Assembly (NCBI GenBank): GCA_947458155.1
Contig: CANGZM010000007.1
Span: 1-33,838, forward strand
DNA from: Synechococcaceae cyanobacterium
GTDB lineage: Bacteria > Cyanobacteriota > Cyanobacteriia > PCC-6307 > Cyanobiaceae
DNA: 33,838 nucleotides
Direction of reading: 5' to 3'
The notes below the pieces were generated by a model, which was not told the DNA's origin, ran no database searches, and saw only the letters and a list, made by a program, of their open reading frames with translations. Positions 24,371 to 33,838 of this stretch are shown here, piece by piece (the first letter of the stretch is position 1; the number at the start of each line of letters is the position of its first letter). The position numbers and the translations under genes were made by a program.

Positions 24371-25123
24371 ATGGGTGGGCGGTTACCTGATTTTCTCGGT
24401 GTCGGGGTACAGAAGGGAGGCACCACCACACTGCAGAAGCTACTAGAACAGCATCCTGGGGCATTTCTACCGGCGGCCAAAGAATTGCACTATTTTAGTC
24501 TTCACTACGCCCGTGGTGAAAGCTGGTACCGCCAGCAGTTCGCAGCCGCATCCCCGGGGCAAAGCAACGGTGAGATCACTCCCTACTATCTTTTTCATCC
24601 CGAAGCTTCTGCACGCATCCAATCTTTGCTACCCCAGGTCCGCCTGGTGGTGCTGCTGCGAGATCCAGTGCAAAGAACTCTGTCGCAGTATTTTCACTCC
24701 CGGCGACTGAAGCTGGAACCGCTGGAGCTGGAGCAGGCCCTAGCGGCCGAGCCGCAACGGTTGGCAGGCGCTGCGGCGATACTGGCCGAAGCGGATGGGC
24801 TCCACCGCAGCCATCAGGAGCACAGCTATGTGGCCCGTAGCCGCTATGAGGAGCAACTGCGACGACTCGAAACCCTCTTTCCCGCTGAGCAGCTGCTGGT
24901 AATGCGCAGCGAGGATCTCTTCGAGCATCCCGAAGCTATCTGGCGGCAGCTGCTGGCCTTTCTGAACCTCGAACCGATCTCTCTGCCGCCGCTGGACAAT
25001 CCCGCCAATGCGGGCCAGGGAGAAGCGGCCTTTGTGCCGCCATCGGTACGCCAGCGGCTGCGACAACAACTGGAGCCCACCTATAAATGGGCGGCACAGC
25101 GCTACGGCATTCACTGGACTTAA
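24371..25123 (+). CDS. Sulfotransferase domain protein
   Basis: PDFLGVGVQKGGTTTLQKLLEQHPGAFLPAAKELHYFS (5'-PSB), VRLVVLLRDPVQRTLSQYFHSRRL (3'-PB); preceded by AGGAG. Confidence 0.92.
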   Translation: MGGRLPDFLGVGVQKGGTTTLQKLLEQHPGAFLPAAKELHYFSLHYARGESWYRQQFAAASPGQSNGEITPYYLFHPEASARIQSLLPQVRLVVLLRDPVQRTLSQYFHSRRLKLEPLELEQALAAEPQRLAGAAAILAEADGLHRSHQEHSYVARSRYEEQLRRLETLFPAEQLLVMRSEDLFEHPEAIWRQLLAFLNLEPISLPPLDNPANAGQGEAAFVPPSVRQRLRQQLEPTYKWAAQRYGIHWT

Positions 25124-25272: not shown

Positions 25273-25986
25273 CTACAGAATGGCCTGATAACTTCTAGAC
25301 TCCATCAACTGGCGGCAAACCTCGATCAGCCGAATATCCTCCGCGTACCAATGGCGGAGGGCCTCCACCCCTGGTGGGGCGATCTGCCTCGAAAGACCAG
25401 GAGGATTGCGGTGGGCTTCCAACTCTCCTGTGGGGAGCACTACCGAAGAGGGGAGGTGCAGCAGGCGCCGCAGGATCTCAAAGTCGCGATCAAGGGATTC
25501 CTGGAAGGCAACGAACAGGATCTGGGAGCGGCGGGAGAGCAGGAAGTCCTCACCAATGAGCCATCGGTTCAGACGCCGGAAGTGACGGATGCCCTCCAGC
25601 GCCTCCCGTGCCAAGGTGTGATGAACAGCGCCAGTGTCGGCTAGAGCAAGCGCCAAGGCCTCGGGTGTGGGAAAAACTGAGAACACCTTCTGCTCAAGCT
25701 CACTCCATGGGAAGAAATAGCGGGGCCGGCCGCAGCGCATTCGGCTGTAGAAGGCGCTCACAAAGCGAGAAATTGGCTCGCGCAAACTGAAGATGACCGG
25801 CTCGGCGGGATCAAGCTCATCAAGAGAAATATCGTGCCCATGCAAAATCAGTTTTAGACCCGGTGGACTAATTGCCTCGGCGAGAGCGTGCTTGATCGCG
25901 GTGCCGCCGGTCTTGCCGATGTGCAGAAAGTGAACGCACTGAAGATCGCCAGCACCGTCAGCCCAGTCGTTCGGTGCCAGTTCCAT
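25273..25986 (-). CDS. Sulfotransferase family protein (Sulfotransfer_2-like)
   Basis: VHFLHIGKTGGTAIKHALAEAI...EPVIFSLREPISRFVSAFYSRMRCGRPRYFFPWSELE; H.GKTGGT P-loop-like and REP..RF.S.F motifs. Confidence 0.85.
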   Translation of the reverse strand: MELAPNDWADGAGDLQCVHFLHIGKTGGTAIKHALAEAISPPGLKLILHGHDISLDELDPAEPVIFSLREPISRFVSAFYSRMRCGRPRYFFPWSELEQKVFSVFPTPEALALALADTGAVHHTLAREALEGIRHFRRLNRWLIGEDFLLSRRSQILFVAFQESLDRDFEILRRLLHLPSSVVLPTGELEAHRNPPGLSRQIAPPGVEALRHWYAEDIRLIEVCRQLMESRSYQAIL

Positions 25987-26017: not shown

Positions 26018-27316
26018 CTATGGATGGTCTAGGGGGGGAAGGTCGATGCGGTTGCCATCCGCCAGAACCATCGTGCGCCGCTCGCCGCGAATCTCGAAGC
26101 GCTCCCCTGCAAAGGTACTGACGACCGGTCCTGGATGGGCCGCCAGGTTCTCCAGCGGGCGTTGGCGTCTGCCCCTGCGCACCATCGCAGCCATGGACTG
26201 CAGAGCGGGAGTGAGCGGCACTGGGCGTCTGCTGCCCCAGGAGCGCCAGCGCCTGCGGCCCCCGGGAGGACTGTGAAAACAGAGGCTACGGACGGCACCC
26301 TCAAGAAAGCAACCCTTCAGCAGCAGACCCCAGTCGCCGAGCAGCTCACCATGGTCACTCACCACGCTCACGGCCACTCGAGAGTGATCGGGGCGTCTGG
26401 CCAGGGCAGCCATCAGGTGCCCCACCTGGGTATCGAGCAAGGCCAGGTGGTCGGCATAGTCGGCGCGCAGCTCCTGCAGGGCCGTACTGGGGATCCCCTC
26501 CGGCCAGCGGGCCATGAGCCGGCTGAGCTGGCAATCCACGGGAAGGCTGTCCGCCCAGCCGGGTCGGGGATCGGGGCCGGGAATCGTGGCGGCGGTGTGA
26601 ACACCACGCCAGCGGGCTGGCACATCGAAGGGCTCGTGAGGCCCCGGAAAGCTCACCCAGAGGAACCAGGGTCGGTCGGTGGGCATGGCTTGCAACTCCG
26701 CCACGGCCTCCGTACCCACCCACAAATCTGGGTAAAGCGCCTCCGGCAACACCGAGGGTTGAACCAAATGGGCGCGGCCGCCCTCGTAGCGATTGGCCAG
26801 ATCCCGGCGGTAGGTCTCCAGCACGCCGGCCTCACGCCAGCGATCCGTAAGCTCACACTCGATCACGGCAAGCGCCCGGGGTCCGGCGATCTCCCGAGCG
26901 CGATCGAAGCCCAACGCCCGCAGCAGGGGGATGTTGTCGCGAAGATCGATCCCCGGCTGGTCGTGGGGTGTCCAGTGGGTTTTGCCGATCAGAGCTGTGG
27001 CGTAACCAGCCTGGCTCAGGTCCCTGACGAACGATGGAGCGTTTGCGGAAATGGTGTAAGGCCTATTACTGGCCAAGCCCAACTCAAGGGGAGTAAGCCC
27101 TGTGAGCCAGCTAGCCCGGGCAGGGACGCAGTGGGGGCAGCTCGTGTAGCACCGCTCCGCCACCCAGCTCTGCCCAGCAAGTTTTTGCAGGTGGGGGAGC
27201 CGCAACCAGGGCTGCCGCAGCCAGTCGCCGCGCCATTGATCGAAGCTAATCAGCAGCCAGCAGTGCGGTGGCTGGCGACGCATCCGGAGCTCTTCATCGA
27301 AACGCCATGATGGCAT
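26018..27316 (-). CDS. Sulfatase (type I, Cys-type)
   Basis: CWLLISFDQWRGDWLRQPWLRLPHLQKLAGQSWVAERCYTSCPHCVPARASWLTGLTPLELGL (C-V-P-A-R maturation motif), SVVSDHGELLGDWGLLLKGCFLEGAVR. Start may be at internal ATG 27283. Confidence 0.9.
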   Translation of the reverse strand: MPSWRFDEELRMRRQPPHCWLLISFDQWRGDWLRQPWLRLPHLQKLAGQSWVAERCYTSCPHCVPARASWLTGLTPLELGLASNRPYTISANAPSFVRDLSQAGYATALIGKTHWTPHDQPGIDLRDNIPLLRALGFDRAREIAGPRALAVIECELTDRWREAGVLETYRRDLANRYEGGRAHLVQPSVLPEALYPDLWVGTEAVAELQAMPTDRPWFLWVSFPGPHEPFDVPARWRGVHTAATIPGPDPRPGWADSLPVDCQLSRLMARWPEGIPSTALQELRADYADHLALLDTQVGHLMAALARRPDHSRVAVSVVSDHGELLGDWGLLLKGCFLEGAVRSLCFHSPPGGRRRWRSWGSRRPVPLTPALQSMAAMVRRGRRQRPLENLAAHPGPVVSTFAGERFEIRGERRTMVLADGNRIDLPPLDHP

Positions 27317-27344: not shown

Positions 27345-28589
27345 TTAGCCTGGGCCCGGGGATGCTTCCCGGAACCTGTTCCTCAGGTTGAGAATTGGAA
27401 TCTCCACAACAACGTAAAGAAGCCACCCCGCCAGCAAACTGGAGAACATGTAGATGAGAAAGGTATTCGGTAGGGCTTGAAGGGTGCCAGGGGAGCGGAA
27501 CGCTCCGAGGATGGGAAGGTGGACGAGATAGAGCGAATAGCTAGAAGAAGCAGGAATGTCCACCAGCAGCTTCCAGCGTCTGCGGTTGGAGAGCATGACC
27601 GTTCTCATGGGTACCACAGCCGCGAGCAAGATGAAGATGGCGCAGGTGATGCGGCTGAATACCTGACCGGCAACAACTAGCTGGCTGAGAATAAGGGTGG
27701 AGTTCTGAAACTGGGATTTGGCCTGGAGAAGCAAGAATCCAAAACGCAGCGCCAAGCCCAACCCCATCATCGCCAATATGGTGCTCAATAGCACCAAGAT
27801 CATCGAACCGATTCGGGCGGGTGGCGGGCTTGCTGCGAACGAAAACCACCGTCGGAGGCTGGGCTGCACCAGCACAATCGCCGCTAGGCCGCCATAGCTG
27901 AGGGCATCGAGCTGCAACACAGTGGACGCCTTGATTTGCTCGAATCCGAATCCGTTGCGGCAGGCGACCCAGCGAGCCACCAGCATCATGATGATCAAGG
28001 AGAGATGGAGAACGGCGAGACGGAAGCAGACTGCGCTCCTGCGGTCGCAGTCTGAGGGCAAAAAACGACCGATGGTGGTGGCGCTGAGCCCGATCAGCAG
28101 GTAGCTCGCTTCCTCTATTGCCAGCGACCAGGTAACGGGGATCAGCCCGGCCGGCCCCTGGGGAGCCAACGGCAGGGTGGGGAGAAAGAAAGCATTCGCC
28201 AGAATGTCCTGCGGAGAGGTGCCCATGAACAGTCCGGTCACCAGGATCACAAGCCAGTAGAGAGGAAGCGTCCGCAGGAATCGACGCATGAAGAAATTGC
28301 GCGAGGCCTTCCAGCTAGATGCCGTGGCCAGCTTGATGGCCTGGCCGGTGATCAAGTACCCGCTGAGGGCAAAAAACAGTTCGATGCCCCAGTGGGCGGG
28401 AGCGAACCAGTAGTCCCCTCTCCAGAGCTGGGGGAGCAGGACGCGCCCATGGGCGAAGACCACCAGCATGACGGCGCTCGCTCGGATCAGATCGAAACTC
28501 CGGATCCATTCCCGTGGGGTCTGCTCATGCACCTCCGCAGCGGCGGCAGCCTGCTGTAAAGATCCCACCTGGTTTTGATGGACCACCAC
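27345..28589 (-). CDS. Acyltransferase family 3 (OafA/YrhL-like)
   Basis: EWIRSFDLIRASAVMLVVFAHGRVLLPQLW...HWGIELFFALSGYLITGQAIKL...NFFMRRFLRTLPLYWLVILVTGL; multiple TM segments. Confidence 0.9.
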   Translation of the reverse strand: MVVHQNQVGSLQQAAAAAEVHEQTPREWIRSFDLIRASAVMLVVFAHGRVLLPQLWRGDYWFAPAHWGIELFFALSGYLITGQAIKLATASSWKASRNFFMRRFLRTLPLYWLVILVTGLFMGTSPQDILANAFFLPTLPLAPQGPAGLIPVTWSLAIEEASYLLIGLSATTIGRFLPSDCDRRSAVCFRLAVLHLSLIIMMLVARWVACRNGFGFEQIKASTVLQLDALSYGGLAAIVLVQPSLRRWFSFAASPPPARIGSMILVLLSTILAMMGLGLALRFGFLLLQAKSQFQNSTLILSQLVVAGQVFSRITCAIFILLAAVVPMRTVMLSNRRRWKLLVDIPASSSYSLYLVHLPILGAFRSPGTLQALPNTFLIYMFSSLLAGWLLYVVVEIPILNLRNRFREASPGPG

Positions 28590-28686: not shown

Positions 28687-29808
28687 GTGGCGCTGGTGAA
28701 CATCAGCCCCTTTTTCCGGCAGGAGTCTTGGGTGCTTGAGAGCGCCTCCGCCGATCACCCCGTTTCGCCCACAACTGCCGAAGTCCCGCCGACGGGGCCG
28801 AAGAACGCCGAGGCCCGGCGCCTCCTGGCCGAAGGAGCGCGCCTGCAGCGAGCCGGCCGGCCGGGGGAGGCGGAGGCCTTTTGGCGGCGTTCCCTTGTCC
28901 TGGCGCCCGCAGACCTGCTGGTGCGCAGGGCGATCAATCAGCTCTGCCCCACGCTCAATAGCCATCCCCTGCCAAGCCGCCGCAGCTGGCCACCCCGGGG
29001 GACCCGCTTTGCCCTGCTGCTGCCAGGCCAACTCCGCTGCCTGGAGCACAGCCGCGGATTCCTTGAGCAGCTTTGCCGCCAGGCCGATCTCTTTGTCTGC
29101 ACCGAGGGGCGCTACCGGGAGGCCGCCACAAGCCTCCGCTGCCGACGCCATCGGGAGGTGCGGATCATCGAGGACGATCCGGAGACAGCGGCCGAGGATG
29201 CGGCCCTGCCCGTGGCTTCAATGAAGCAGTGGCACAAGCTGGCGGTATGCCTGGCAATGGTGCGGGAGCAGGAGCGACACCAGGGCCACCGATATACCCA
29301 TCTGGTGAAACTACGCAGCGATTACCTGCACGTGAATCCTGAGTGGTTCTTCCAAGACCTCGTGCAGCACAAGCACGACGGACTGGCCTGTGCTTCGGAC
29401 AAGGTCTTCGCTGGCAACCGGGACGTGATGATGCTCTTCCGGGGGTTTCAGAAAGCGATTGCTGGGTTCTTCGATGGGCACGAGCACACCTACTGGCCGA
29501 TCAACGTGGAGACCATCCTCAGTTCCGATGATTCCAGCAAGTGGTACGGCATGAACTGGCCTGAACGGCTCGTGGGCAAACCGGCGAGGGTGGAGGAACT
29601 GCGGCAGGTCCTCCAGCGGGGGGGAAGCGAATTGGCGTCGGCGCTGGCCGGGTTCCGGAGCCAACCGGATGAGCCCTTCCTGCGCCTGTTCCAAGGACAT
29701 CCCCGCTTCGCTTCGGAGGTGTGCTTTGCCCGTTTCCTGAACCTCTGCGGTATTGCCGCCCATGGGAACCGGGCACTGCAGGGCTTCCTGCGCAACGACC
29801 GGAGCTGA
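28687..29808 (+). CDS. Hypothetical protein: TPR-like N-terminus plus possible glycosyltransferase-like domain
   Basis: NAEARRLLAEGARLQRAGRPGEAEAFWRRSLVLAP (TPR-like); YTHLVKLRSDYLHVNPEWFFQDLVQ...SDDSSKWYGMNWPERLVGKP. GTG start. Confidence 0.6.
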   Translation: MALVNISPFFRQESWVLESASADHPVSPTTAEVPPTGPKNAEARRLLAEGARLQRAGRPGEAEAFWRRSLVLAPADLLVRRAINQLCPTLNSHPLPSRRSWPPRGTRFALLLPGQLRCLEHSRGFLEQLCRQADLFVCTEGRYREAATSLRCRRHREVRIIEDDPETAAEDAALPVASMKQWHKLAVCLAMVREQERHQGHRYTHLVKLRSDYLHVNPEWFFQDLVQHKHDGLACASDKVFAGNRDVMMLFRGFQKAIAGFFDGHEHTYWPINVETILSSDDSSKWYGMNWPERLVGKPARVEELRQVLQRGGSELASALAGFRSQPDEPFLRLFQGHPRFASEVCFARFLNLCGIAAHGNRALQGFLRNDRS

Positions 29809-29814
29809 AGGGAG

Positions 29815-31461
29815 GTGGATCGTCTTGCGATCAGCGTGCTCGTGCCGGCAGGGGGGAGCCTTGCCGCGCGCACCCTCGGACCGGCCCCGCCCTTGCATCC
29901 GGATCCCCTGTGGCTGCCGGCGGGGAGCGCCCTTGCCATCGAACGGATCGCCCGCTTCCACCTGGCCAACCCCGAGGTGTCGGAAGTTCTGGTCGTGAGC
30001 GACTGGGAGGCGGCGGGAGGACCTCCCGCCGATCTGCAATGTCTGGCCGGGGTTCGTCTGCTGCGGGTGCCGCCCCAGTGCCACATTTGCGGCTCCATCG
30101 CGGCGGCCCTTCCAGCCCTGCAGAACGCCTGGGTGATGATCAACCCGATCACCACTCTTCCGAGCCATGCGGCGCAAGCGCAGACGGCCATCCTGATTGG
30201 CAGCGATCCCCTCATCCGCGAGGACTGGTCCTCGCTGCTTGACGAGCGCCCGCAGGGCTGGCGGTTTCTCCGCAAGGGGATACCAGGGGAGGGGGAGCCT
30301 CCTTCCCATCCTTTCACCGGCATCCTCACGGCTCCCGTCTCCCTGCTCAGCGACGTTCTGGCGGATCTGTCAGAGCCGGAGGGCCACGATCTTCTGGCCG
30401 TGGCGGAGCGACTTCATCGCCTGCACGGGGCATCTGTAATCACTACAAAATGGTTTGACCTGGGGCATCGCGCCAGCGTCGCCGACTCGAACCGCAGCCG
30501 CCTGCCCAGCCGCTCTTTCAATCACCTGAGTTATTGCCCCCGGCGCGATGCGATCGTGAAGGTATCGAGCGACGGGGCGCGGCTAAGGCAGGAGATGGCC
30601 TACTTGGAGGCGCTGCCTCCGGCTCTGCGCCGTCATTTCCCTGCCCTGCTGCCCCCGCAGGCGGGGGAGGAAAAGGCACTGGTGATGGAGGCCCTCCCCT
30701 TCCCCAACTTGGCCGAACTCTTTCTCTACTGGCGGATCGGCCCTAATGCCTGGCTGGCGATCCTCGAAAGGCTGGCGGCGATCCTCGCGGAGTTCGCCAC
30801 AGCCAGTTCACCGCGCCAAGGCATGGGGGACTGGCTCTGGGGCCGCAAGCTGGAACAGCGCTGGGAGATGCTCTGGCAGGGAGATGGAAATACGGTGCTG
30901 ATGGGGTGGCGCAAGCAGGGGATGCGTATCAACAGCCGCTGGTATCCCCCGCTGGAGGTGGTCGTGGAGACCATGCTTGAGGCCTTGGGGCCCTTGCAGA
31001 CACGCAGCCAGCTCCAGCTCATTCACGGGGACCTGTGCTTCAACAACATCCTCTGCGACCCCCTTTACACCAGTGTGCGTTTGATCGATCCGCGCGGAGA
31101 GACGCCGCCCGGCCGAATCCTGGCGGTCGGCATCGGCGATGCCCGCTACGACTTGATCAAGCTCAACCATTCCCTCGCCGGCCTCTACGACGCCACTGTG
31201 AACAATCTCTTCTCCCTGGGCGTTGAGAACAACCACCTCGAACTACGGCTCTATGCCCCTCCGAATCACAGGTTCCTGCTGGAGGCAGCCGAGGGGATGT
31301 TGCTCAAGGTGGTGCCTGCCGAAGAGCGGAGAATCCTCACAGCCTGCCTTTTCCTCAGCATGCTGCCGCTGCACAGGGAGGATCCAGCTCGGCAGCTTGC
31401 CCTGGCGGCCACCGGCGTGCTGCTCTGGCACGACGATATCGACACTGCTGTGGCACATTGA
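29815..31461 (+). CDS. Degenerate nucleotidyltransferase-like N-domain fused to APH/choline-kinase-like phosphotransferase
   Basis: N-half is an NTase-like fold guess (SALAIERIARFHLANPEVSEVLVVSDW...); C-half contains LIHGDLCFNNILCDPLYTSVRLIDPRG (HGDxxxxNIL...DPRG Brenner/DFG-like kinase motifs). GTG start. Confidence 0.7.
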   Translation: MDRLAISVLVPAGGSLAARTLGPAPPLHPDPLWLPAGSALAIERIARFHLANPEVSEVLVVSDWEAAGGPPADLQCLAGVRLLRVPPQCHICGSIAAALPALQNAWVMINPITTLPSHAAQAQTAILIGSDPLIREDWSSLLDERPQGWRFLRKGIPGEGEPPSHPFTGILTAPVSLLSDVLADLSEPEGHDLLAVAERLHRLHGASVITTKWFDLGHRASVADSNRSRLPSRSFNHLSYCPRRDAIVKVSSDGARLRQEMAYLEALPPALRRHFPALLPPQAGEEKALVMEALPFPNLAELFLYWRIGPNAWLAILERLAAILAEFATASSPRQGMGDWLWGRKLEQRWEMLWQGDGNTVLMGWRKQGMRINSRWYPPLEVVVETMLEALGPLQTRSQLQLIHGDLCFNNILCDPLYTSVRLIDPRGETPPGRILAVGIGDARYDLIKLNHSLAGLYDATVNNLFSLGVENNHLELRLYAPPNHRFLLEAAEGMLLKVVPAEERRILTACLFLSMLPLHREDPARQLALAATGVLLWHDDIDTAVAH

Positions 31462-32255
31462 ATCTGCTTCTCACCGCCGCCGGAGCCGGCAGTCGCTTCC
31501 GCCAGCAAGGAATCTCAACCCCCAAGCCGCTCATCCGGGTGCAGGGCAAGGAGTTGCTGCTTCATGCTCTTGCCTCGTTCGAGCTCGCCCATGGCGACCG
31601 TCTGCTGCTAGGGGTGCAGCGGCAGCACAGGGTCCGTCAGCAGCTTGAGCAGGTGCTGGCGGAGGAGCTGCCCGACGTGTCGGTGAGCTGGGTGGAGCTC
31701 GAGGAGCTGCTGCCGGGGCAACTCGCCACGGCGGCTGCCTGCGTTAGCAGGGCCTGGGGGGAAAACGACCAGGCGCTGGGGGGCCCCCTTCTGATCCACA
31801 ACTGCGACACGGGGTTCGCCTGGCCTGACGAAGGTGGCCGGAGCCTGCTGCCCGGTGAGTCTTACGGGTCCATGGCCGTGTTCCCGGCGGCAGGAGAGCA
31901 CTGGTCCTTCGGCCGCCCTGATCCTGCCGACCCTCGCAGGGCACTGGAGATCCGCGAGAAAAGCCGCATCTCCCCGTTGGCCTCGATCGGGCTCTACGGC
32001 TTCCGGCACGGCGGAGAATTCCTTGCCGATGCCCGCCGATGGCTCCGCGATACCCAACCGCTGCGGGGTGAACACTACGTGGCACCGCTGCTGCAGGGGG
32101 CCCTGGAGCGAGGTGAAACGGTGCTACTGCCGCGGGTGGAGGGGGTGCGGCTGTTCGGGACGCCACAAGAATTGTGCTCAACATTCGGTATCGACCTCGC
32201 GGAGCTGCGCCAACAGAACGCCCCAACCCCTGCTGGGGAGGAGGACCATGGCTGA
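31458..32255 (+). CDS. Sugar-phosphate/small-molecule nucleotidyltransferase
   Basis: MNLLLTAAGAGSRFRQQGISTPKPLIRVQGKELLLHALASF (GxGxR...PKPL signature). TTG start overlapping the upstream TGA. Confidence 0.82.
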   Translation: MNLLLTAAGAGSRFRQQGISTPKPLIRVQGKELLLHALASFELAHGDRLLLGVQRQHRVRQQLEQVLAEELPDVSVSWVELEELLPGQLATAAACVSRAWGENDQALGGPLLIHNCDTGFAWPDEGGRSLLPGESYGSMAVFPAAGEHWSFGRPDPADPRRALEIREKSRISPLASIGLYGFRHGGEFLADARRWLRDTQPLRGEHYVAPLLQGALERGETVLLPRVEGVRLFGTPQELCSTFGIDLAELRQQNAPTPAGEEDHG

Positions 32256-33153
32256 GCCGGTGCCGAGGCCCAGCCTCGTGCGGGTGGCCATTCCCCACCA
32301 CTGGCAGCCGCTGGAGGGTCGTGAGGGCCATGGCTCCCTGCGGCGCGAAGAGGGGATGCTGCGGGCAATCGCCCTGGCCCGCTGCCTCGGCGGGGTGCTG
32401 GCGCTGGCCCGTGGTGAGCGCGAGGAGATCCTGGCCATCGCTGATGATCGGATCGAAGCGGCGCCCACCCCTGCCTACCCGGCACGGCGACTGCCCGGGG
32501 TATGGGTCGACTGCCACGTGTTCGTCAATGGCGATGCCTGCCGCCAAGACGTGCTCGCGGCCTTCGAGCGCCGAATCAAAGTGCACCGGCTGCAACTGGA
32601 GGATCCGATGCAGCTGCCCGCAGCCGCCCGGGACTTCCTGCTGCGGGAAGCATCGACAGTGGCGGATCTTTCCCTCTATCTGGAAGATGATCTGGTAATC
32701 GGCGATCGGCTCTATGCCGACAAGCTGTTGTGGTTCTGCGAGCGCACCCAGCACCGCTACACGCTGATGCCCCACCGCTACGAGCTCACCGGCGTGGTCA
32801 GGGCGCCACGGTTGTTTGTGGATGGCCCGATTGATCCTGAGTACCTGCGGGGCTTCCAGGCAACGCAGCAGGGAGTGGCCCAAGGAAGGTTTTGGGATGG
32901 GCAGGAGGTGAGCTTCGATCTGGCGAGCAATCCCCATTCAGGCAGCTTCGCGCTCAGCCGCCCGCAGCAACAACGGCTGCGGCAGGAGGCCCTGGCCGCT
33001 ACAGAGTTCGTGGGGCCGCTGGAAACCGTGGCCACCGGCACCGTGCTGGCCGCATTTCCTGTGATGAAGGCTGGCTGGCAATGGCGGGACTTCCTGCTGC
33101 TCGAGCACGCCCACCCCTCCTTCCTGGCCTGCCGGTTTCGGCGGCAGGAATGA
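32248..33153 (+). CDS. Hypothetical protein, possible glycosyltransferase-like (EDD motif)
   Basis: [19 protein letters not shown]...[12 protein letters not shown]...[44 protein letters not shown]; overlaps upstream gene by 8 nt. Confidence 0.6.
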
Positions 33154-33337: not shown

Positions 33338-33364
33338 AAAAAAAGCTCCCCCGAAGGAGAGCTT
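33338..33364 (-). terminator. Rho-independent terminator with C(UUCG)G tetraloop
   Basis: Minus strand: AGCTCTCC-TTCG-GGGGAGCT-TTTTTT, 8-bp stem (one G-U) followed by T-tract, ~20 nt after the stop of the partial CDS. Confidence 0.9.
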
Positions 33365-33383
33365 GGAAAGGATCAACAGAGGA

Positions 33384-33838
33384 TCAGACCAAAGTAATTT
33401 GGCCGGGAAGAATTCCCCCGAGTGATTGTGTTTGAAAAAGAAGATCAGAGGAAGAATAGGTTTTTTGACTGTCTTGGATCCAGAGGTATGATGCGGTTAC
33501 GACGGAACCAGGGGCGCCAATAGTAGCCGTGAAGTTGTATGACTTGATGTTCGATGTAGTTGAAGCGTTGACCTGACCGGGTCCAGGGCCTAGAGGCAGG
33601 GCATCAAGTTGAATCGTGAGAGCGGCAAAATCAGTGGCCGTAAAGGCACCAAGGTTATTTGATGTGACCGCAGCACCCAGAGTTAGGGGGCCACCGGCTA
33701 GCTGGTTGGCTACAGCAGAAATGTTCAGCCTGTCATTAGCTGCAAATGCGTAGTTAATGAAACTATCAAATGTCAGCGTGGCCGCGGCTGCAGTTCCTGA
33801 AGTAGCAGCAGCTGATTCGGCAATTGAGTTGATGTTAA
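33384..33838 (-). CDS. C-terminal part of a secreted/surface-like protein (5' end outside window)
   Basis: Reverse frame is open from window end to TGA at 33386-33384: NINSIAESAAATSGTAAAATLTFDSFINYAFAANDRLNISAVANQLAGGPLTLGAAVTSNNLGAFTATDFAALTIQLDALPLGPGPGQVNASTTSNIKSYNFTATIGAPGSVVTASYLWIQDSQKTYSSSDLLFQTQSLGGILPGQITLV*. Ser/Thr/Ala/Asn-rich, Cys-free. Missing from ORF track because no start is in the window. Confidence 0.8.
   Translation of the reverse strand, partial: NINSIAESAAATSGTAAAATLTFDSFINYAFAANDRLNISAVANQLAGGPLTLGAAVTSNNLGAFTATDFAALTIQLDALPLGPGPGQVNASTTSNIKSYNFTATIGAPGSVVTASYLWIQDSQKTYSSSDLLFQTQSLGGILPGQITLV

Follow-up and report, generated by a model that had tools for sequence, protein, structure and literature searches.

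Closest described systems

The logic by which a kinase and a nucleotidyltransferase (NTase) together activate a compound is known. In the MurNAc salvage of Pseudomonas, the NTase MurU activates the product of the kinase AmgK, with the HAD phosphatase MupP acting upstream (PMC5371407). The phosphocholine decoration by LicA, LicC and LicD likewise joins a kinase, an NTase and a transferase. In the MeOPN pathway of Campylobacter, four enzymes, Cj1415–Cj1418, together turn glutamine, ATP and CTP into CDP-phosphoramidate 3'-phosphate, and the enzyme named "cytidine diphosphoramidate kinase" takes the CDP compound as its substrate, after the cytidylyltransferase (PMC11800397).

We analyzed a window of 33,838 nucleotides—contig C7 of a 2.48 Mb genome that is 85% complete—in which a kinase gene (gene 2) adjoins an NTase gene (gene 3), an arrangement whose nearest analogue in logic is AmgK–MurU. 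Unlike that pair, however, the module has a kinase with a predicted dead NTase-like domain, a candidate transferase (gene 1), a sulfatase-like gene and a glycan-island setting, and gene 3 reaches 22.4 bits against the MurU equivalog (cut-off 250) in fragmentary matches; by that score the module is not an AmgK/MurU member. A preliminary description of this DNA had also drawn comparisons with LicA/LicC and with Cj1415–Cj1416. The former shares the kinase, NTase and transferase logic, but fails as kinship: membership was rejected because the choline-kinase motif is missing, and no LicD-type gene was recognized. The latter, compared through the literature only, is a loose likeness in that both concern a nucleotide-activated capsule substituent, and it does not carry over, since Cj1415–Cj1418 act jointly and the kinase there works on the CDP compound (PMC11800397), unlike the order proposed for the module (i.e., kinase, then NTase).

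Our preferred reading, to which we give a probability of roughly 55%, is that genes 1–3 constitute a module that activates a compound and transfers it to a surface glycan, with the dead N-terminal domain of gene 2 pairing with gene 3 and the sulfatase- and sulfotransferase-like neighbors performing tailoring. From the gene content, motifs, co-occurrence and signature loss seen directly, we infer the reactions, the identity of the activated compound (X) and the gene 2–gene 3 pairing. The C-terminal domain of gene 2 would phosphorylate X (X + ATP → X-P), a small hydroxylated compound and most likely a sugar or polyol; gene 3 would convert X-P and an NTP into NDP-X; and gene 1 would move X or phospho-X onto the polysaccharide of the surrounding cluster. 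The dead domain of gene 2 probably pairs with gene 3 by docking or channeling, and the sulfatase-like and sulfotransferase-like neighbors may further tailor X or its acceptor. None of the family matches of the module proteins indicates the substrate. The unusual NDP-activated substituent of the preliminary description gains from the kinase–NTase linkage within and far outside cyanobacteria and from the glycan setting, though not in the role it gave to gene 4 (see below).

More tentatively, and at odds that fall a little short of even, the locus may represent a new glycan-substituent pathway in full—a dead-NTase kinase partnering an NTase, a new transferase family (gene 1), a cytoplasmic CxPxR hydrolase and a core pair shared with phages that would build NDP-activated compounds of their own, some of them from DHBP-synthase/transaldolase-derived precursors. 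In picocyanobacteria, encounters with phages and grazers are presumed to depend on the surface glycans; a compact, patchy and enzymatically readable module with cyanophage relatives is a concrete gene set for expression and assay.

Layout of the locus

Four plus-strand genes stand in a row:

28687–29808, plus strand: gene 1, candidate transferase of the GQxR/GELR family with an R-x-D motif (KLRSDY)
29815–31461, plus strand: gene 2, degenerate NTase-like N-terminal domain (aa 1–~230) followed by an APH-type kinase (aa ~235–540)
31458–32255, plus strand: gene 3, intact MobA/4evw-type nucleotidyltransferase
32248–33153, plus strand: gene 4, EDD family of cyanobacteria, resembling a GT by motif only

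Genes 1 and 2 are 6 nt apart, genes 2 and 3 overlap in the TTGA at 31458, and genes 3 and 4 overlap by 8 nt, so that the tight spacing first described was recovered with the same coordinates throughout. The longest open reading frame of gene 4 begins at 31834, and the ATG at 32248 is preferred, in agreement with its homologs. We take the frames to be real, beyond chance, because they are kept as proteins in other genomes. A sigma-70-like promoter was sought at the locus and none was found, which is a weak test for cyanobacteria. Of the four-gene coupled operon proposed earlier, the close packing and the linkage of genes 1–3 stand and the integral place of gene 4 does not; a single transcript is a prediction.

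The kinase and nucleotidyltransferase and their relatives

The C-terminal domain of gene 2 matches Pfam APH (PF01636) at 29.7 bits (cut-off 23.2). Its kinase motif, IHGDLCFNNIL...IDPRG (residues 403–428), includes the Brenner motif HxDhX3N as H404GDLCFNN411 (with D406) and the metal-binding D425 (D425PRG), and these are conserved together with the ATP lysine K249. The choline-kinase motif ID(FWY)E(YF) (PMC4364537) was sought in the module kinases and their stand-alone relatives and is absent, IDPRG standing in its place. Gene 3 keeps the signature GAGSRF...PKPL (GxGxRF, PKPL, NCD and EK are all conserved) and exceeds the cut-off for Pfam NTP_transf_3 (28.2 bits vs. 27). The APH-like kinase and the intact NTase that had been read from the letters alone are thus both borne out. 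The nearest solved relative of gene 3 is PDB 4evw (E = 5e-16), which is annotated as a nucleoside-diphosphate-sugar pyrophosphorylase and for which we know of no measured substrate. Two further genomes hold tandem NTase–NTase proteins (L037:5948-7528 and L038:5604-7172, in G080 and G042), both halves of which are related to gene 3.

Scans with gene 2 profiles found kinases in Brevibacillus, Longirhabdus, a micrarchaeon and 14 viral contigs. With the kinase as the only query, a gene-3-like NTase proved to be adjacent or next but one to it at all 14 loci that are uncut on the relevant side, and the kinase loci examined by family search contain a small TIGR01689-related HAD phosphatase. In phages, the NTase is fused to, or then followed by, DHBP synthase, and a transaldolase-like gene is present; Synechococcus phage S-SKS1 has the same arrangement. 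The phage clusters (L051–L063 and, for S-SKS1, L089) hold the NTase–DHBP synthase fusion, the gene-2-like kinase, the TIGR01689-like HAD, and transaldolase-like and GQxR proteins, and suggest that phages carry a pathway leading to an unusual activated sugar. NTase and kinase are fused in one protein in six cyanobacterial genomes and in Enterococcus phage Planchet (L091, 1454–3426). In the latter, an adjoining 115-aa protein is annotated as a polynucleotide kinase and the neighbors include thymidylate synthase/pyrimidine hydroxymethylase and glycosyltransferases; the locus possibly serves DNA-base hypermodification.

The Brevibacillus and phage sets, i.e., a kinase with a TIGR01689 (EcbF-BcbF-like) HAD and a 4evw-type NTase, likewise place a homologous kinase and NTase side by side; by comparison, the module is without TIGR01689 and adds gene 1, the dead N-terminal domain and the sulfatase-like gene. 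A TIGR01689 HAD was sought in the seven genomes that carry the module (the present one 85% complete, four of the other six about 99%) and found in none; only G302, where gene 2 adjoins an NTase–HAD fusion, was positive. On this count we rejected a hidden EcbF-like HAD partner encoded at another place in the genome, and searching the literature for the EcbF-type phosphatase turned up nothing of use. As the HAD of the relatives suggests a phosphorylated precursor there, on the pattern of MupP–AmgK–MurU (PMC5371407), and is absent from the module genomes, X is probably phosphorylated directly.

These relatives bear on a salvage-type alternative, in which the kinase would phosphorylate sugars at the anomeric position, after the logic of AmgK/NahK, and gene 3 would be a sugar-1-phosphate NTase, the two supplying an NDP-sugar to gene 1 as an ordinary glycosyltransferase. 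It amounts to a more restricted version of our preferred reading, and we regard it as a genuine possibility with the odds against it. It has a precedent in AmgK–MurU, where a kinase is paired with an NTase and fed by the HAD phosphatase MupP (PMC5371407), and it accords both with the NTase and HAD phosphatase beside the kinase relatives and with the weak MurU-, RmlA- and GlmU-type matches of gene 3 in NCBIfam. Every one of those matches, however, lies far under its curated cut-off, so the substrate of gene 3 is not assigned from family, and the lack of a TIGR01689 HAD in the module genomes also counts against it, though a free sugar needs none.

The candidate transferase

Gene 1 has no Pfam family above cut-off. 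The "TPR" of the preliminary description falls away, as the match is sub-threshold (E = 0.07) and the TPR-like linker occurs only in some members, being short or missing in other homologs. Its suggested role as a transferase fares better: gene 1 is related to a phage GQxR family (GQMR...VIKxRPDF; hhalign probability 94, E = 1.3e-7) that turns up repeatedly in those phage clusters which also hold the kinase–NTase relatives. We therefore treat gene 1, on sequence grounds, as a candidate transferase. A pattern scan of the viral contigs for gene 1 relatives gave none, whereas profile comparison does find this family. Homologs stand in all seven modules (37–79% identity) and conserve an N-terminal QPxWVLxSAS tag, a GELR/GQLR strand and KLRSDY; the tag (28687–28760 in the window) precedes the variable linker in all seven proteins. 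The AF2 model is of moderate quality (pLDDT 70, pTM 0.68), and its best PDB fold match is the GT-A protein EXTL2, at a non-significant E of 0.1. An early match in G084 (L041, 4580–5791) was dropped because the alignment looked unrelated.

Wider module and setting

The module reaches left of the four genes described at first, where a sulfatase-like gene and a sulfotransferase-like family belong to it. The features on this side of the window are:

24371–25123, plus strand: sulfotransferase (PF13469/PF00685), with near-module homologs in G029 (60%) and G418 (55%)
25273–25986, minus strand: hypothetical protein adjoining the sulfatase-like gene, no Pfam match, 81% in Cyanobium FGCU6 (tblastn)
26018–27316, minus strand: sulfatase/phosphonate-monoester-hydrolase-like (PMH) protein, Pfam Sulfatase, CVPARASWLTG (CxPxR)
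27345–28589, minus strand: acyltransferase-3 membrane protein (PF01757, 6e-18), divergently oriented to gene 1

The sulfatase-like gene is present in all seven modules (57–83% identity), each time with C-V/I-P-A-R-A/V-S-W-L-T-G, and so carries the CxPxR motif of type I (formylglycine) sulfatases; a signal peptide is not evident by eye. Its three strongest matches among 385 genomes of the class all lie in module genomes. A 40% homolog in G276 and G366 has no module genes near it and was left out as belonging to another subfamily. By profile, choline-sulfatase is closest in the PDB (2e-28), followed by PMH (3e-21), and arylsulfatases also match; against the choline-sulfatase equivalog of NCBIfam the protein scores 120 bits, below the cut-off of 433.

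This match is part of what could favor the activation of a small alcohol akin to choline or ethanolamine (LicA–LicC logic), whereby X-P would become CDP-X, phospho-X would be transferred and the sulfatase-like protein may free X from a sulfate ester. The kinase–NTase–transferase architecture would suit such a route, yet we consider it unlikely: the kinases have IDPRG where the choline-kinase motif would be, gene 2 matches only APH in Pfam, a LicD-type transferase is not seen in the module, and the resemblance of the sulfatase-like protein extends to phosphonate monoester hydrolase and arylsulfatases.

The second family, of 335 aa, is marked by HxGHGKTGSSYLQ and VRDPLEHACSVY and resembles PAPS sulfotransferases by motif. 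It occurs in six of the seven modules:

L021:10989-11987, L022:4096-5160, L075:6502-7512, L076:4861-5862, L087:4720-5775 and L088:2389-3387: members of the 335-aa sulfotransferase-like family

No Pfam family exceeds its cut-off here (one member matches Sulfotransfer_3 at E = 0.07), and a PDB sequence search returned nothing. In the window, the acyltransferase-3 gene, for which the other module loci show no homolog, occupies the place of the 335-aa gene of G029. The sulfotransferase at 24371–25123 is possibly a module accessory.

The window also encodes glycosyltransferases, sulfotransferases and an ABC-2 exporter pair, in keeping with a polysaccharide-cluster setting, and beside the module in G047 are genes for an NTase with a CBS domain, CTP_transf_3, MocA and a 2-epimerase, as in nonulosonate pathways. 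Together, these genes fit a surface polysaccharide.

The N-terminal domain of gene 2

All eight gene-2-type proteins have lost the GxGxR...K signature, which all seven related NTase–kinase fusions keep, as might be expected of the possibly inactive NTase-like domain that had been noted ahead of the kinase. A separate gene 3 accompanies each protein with a signature-less domain (8/8), while the six cyanobacterial loci whose fused NTase is intact have no strong gene-3 match nearby; a split of 8/8 vs. 0/6 has a chance of 1 in 3003 (counted by hand) given independence, and related genomes are not independent. We conclude that the domain is likely a catalytically dead NTase, a prediction from signature and model. 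An intact fused NTase without a partner, set against a dead domain with a separate NTase, makes a clean test case of catalysis lost and domain retained.

That the domain might instead be of other origin, e.g., an unrelated substrate-binding Rossmann-like domain, seems improbable to us. Such an origin would agree with the want of a significant match—a PDB sequence search with the domain gave nothing, and profile comparisons with NTases were empty apart from a hhalign alignment to the fused NTases, which is colinear and full-length but weak (E = 0.034, probability 1.5%). That alignment nevertheless points toward NTases, as does a low-confidence model (pLDDT 44) built from three rows without any NTase sequence, for which the top 21 Foldseek matches in the PDB are nearly all NTases, with IspD and RmlA among the best. 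Kinases of the gene-2 type form a single clade (support 100/100) in the kinase tree, and this clade lies nearer to stand-alone kinases than to NTase–kinase fusions, though many forks are unresolved, so the N-terminal domain need not derive from these fusions.

Distribution and co-occurrence

Strong matches to genes 1, 2 and 3 among 149 related genomes were confined to the genome itself (G000), Cyanobium sp. FGCU6 (G029), which is its nearest module-bearing relative, and Prochlorococcus sp. AG-363-O15 (G047); a further four, G418, G360, G472 and G499, emerged when profiles were run over about 390 genomes of the class and over two genera. Gene calls in the other loci are simple ORF calls, and E-values from the collection scans cover candidate stretches only. 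Genes 1–3 adjoin on one strand in all seven genomes found, in the orders 1-2-3, 1-2-3-4 and 1-2-4-3, and so withstand the co-occurrence test that the preliminary description had set for itself, although these seven modules, drawn from four genera, do not count as so many independent events. Within a genus, few genomes carry the module (2/34 and 2/31 in two genera), which suggests that it has been gained and lost, a frequent behavior of glycan-island genes. The idea that the genes are functionally unlinked, i.e., a generic hexose-1-P NTase and a chance kinase in a variable glycan island, is very improbable, since although such islands shuffle genes (as with gene 4 here), genes 1–3 stay linked in 7/7 modules despite order changes, kinase and NTase are linked across phyla and phages, and NTase–kinase fusions exist.

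Gene 4 and the right flank

Gene 4 has no relatives in Pfam or in the PDB (sequence search included), and its family shows an invariant EDD motif and VRVAIPH..GYGSGR. Contrary to its initial inclusion as an integral part of the set, it is an accessory, and core membership was rejected: it is found in four of the seven modules and in two positions, at the end (G000, G029) or between genes 2 and 3 (G047, G499), being absent from G418, G360 and G472; the module copies do not form one clade; and the family, common across the cyanobacterial class, occurs in 34 of the 149 related genomes, mostly without the module.

To the right of gene 4, at 33343–33836, lie a terminator-like hairpin and the C-terminus of an Ala/Ser/Thr-rich protein, which is encoded convergently and leaves the window. 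The corresponding side in Cyanobium FGCU6 holds a type I secretion system and an RTX protein.
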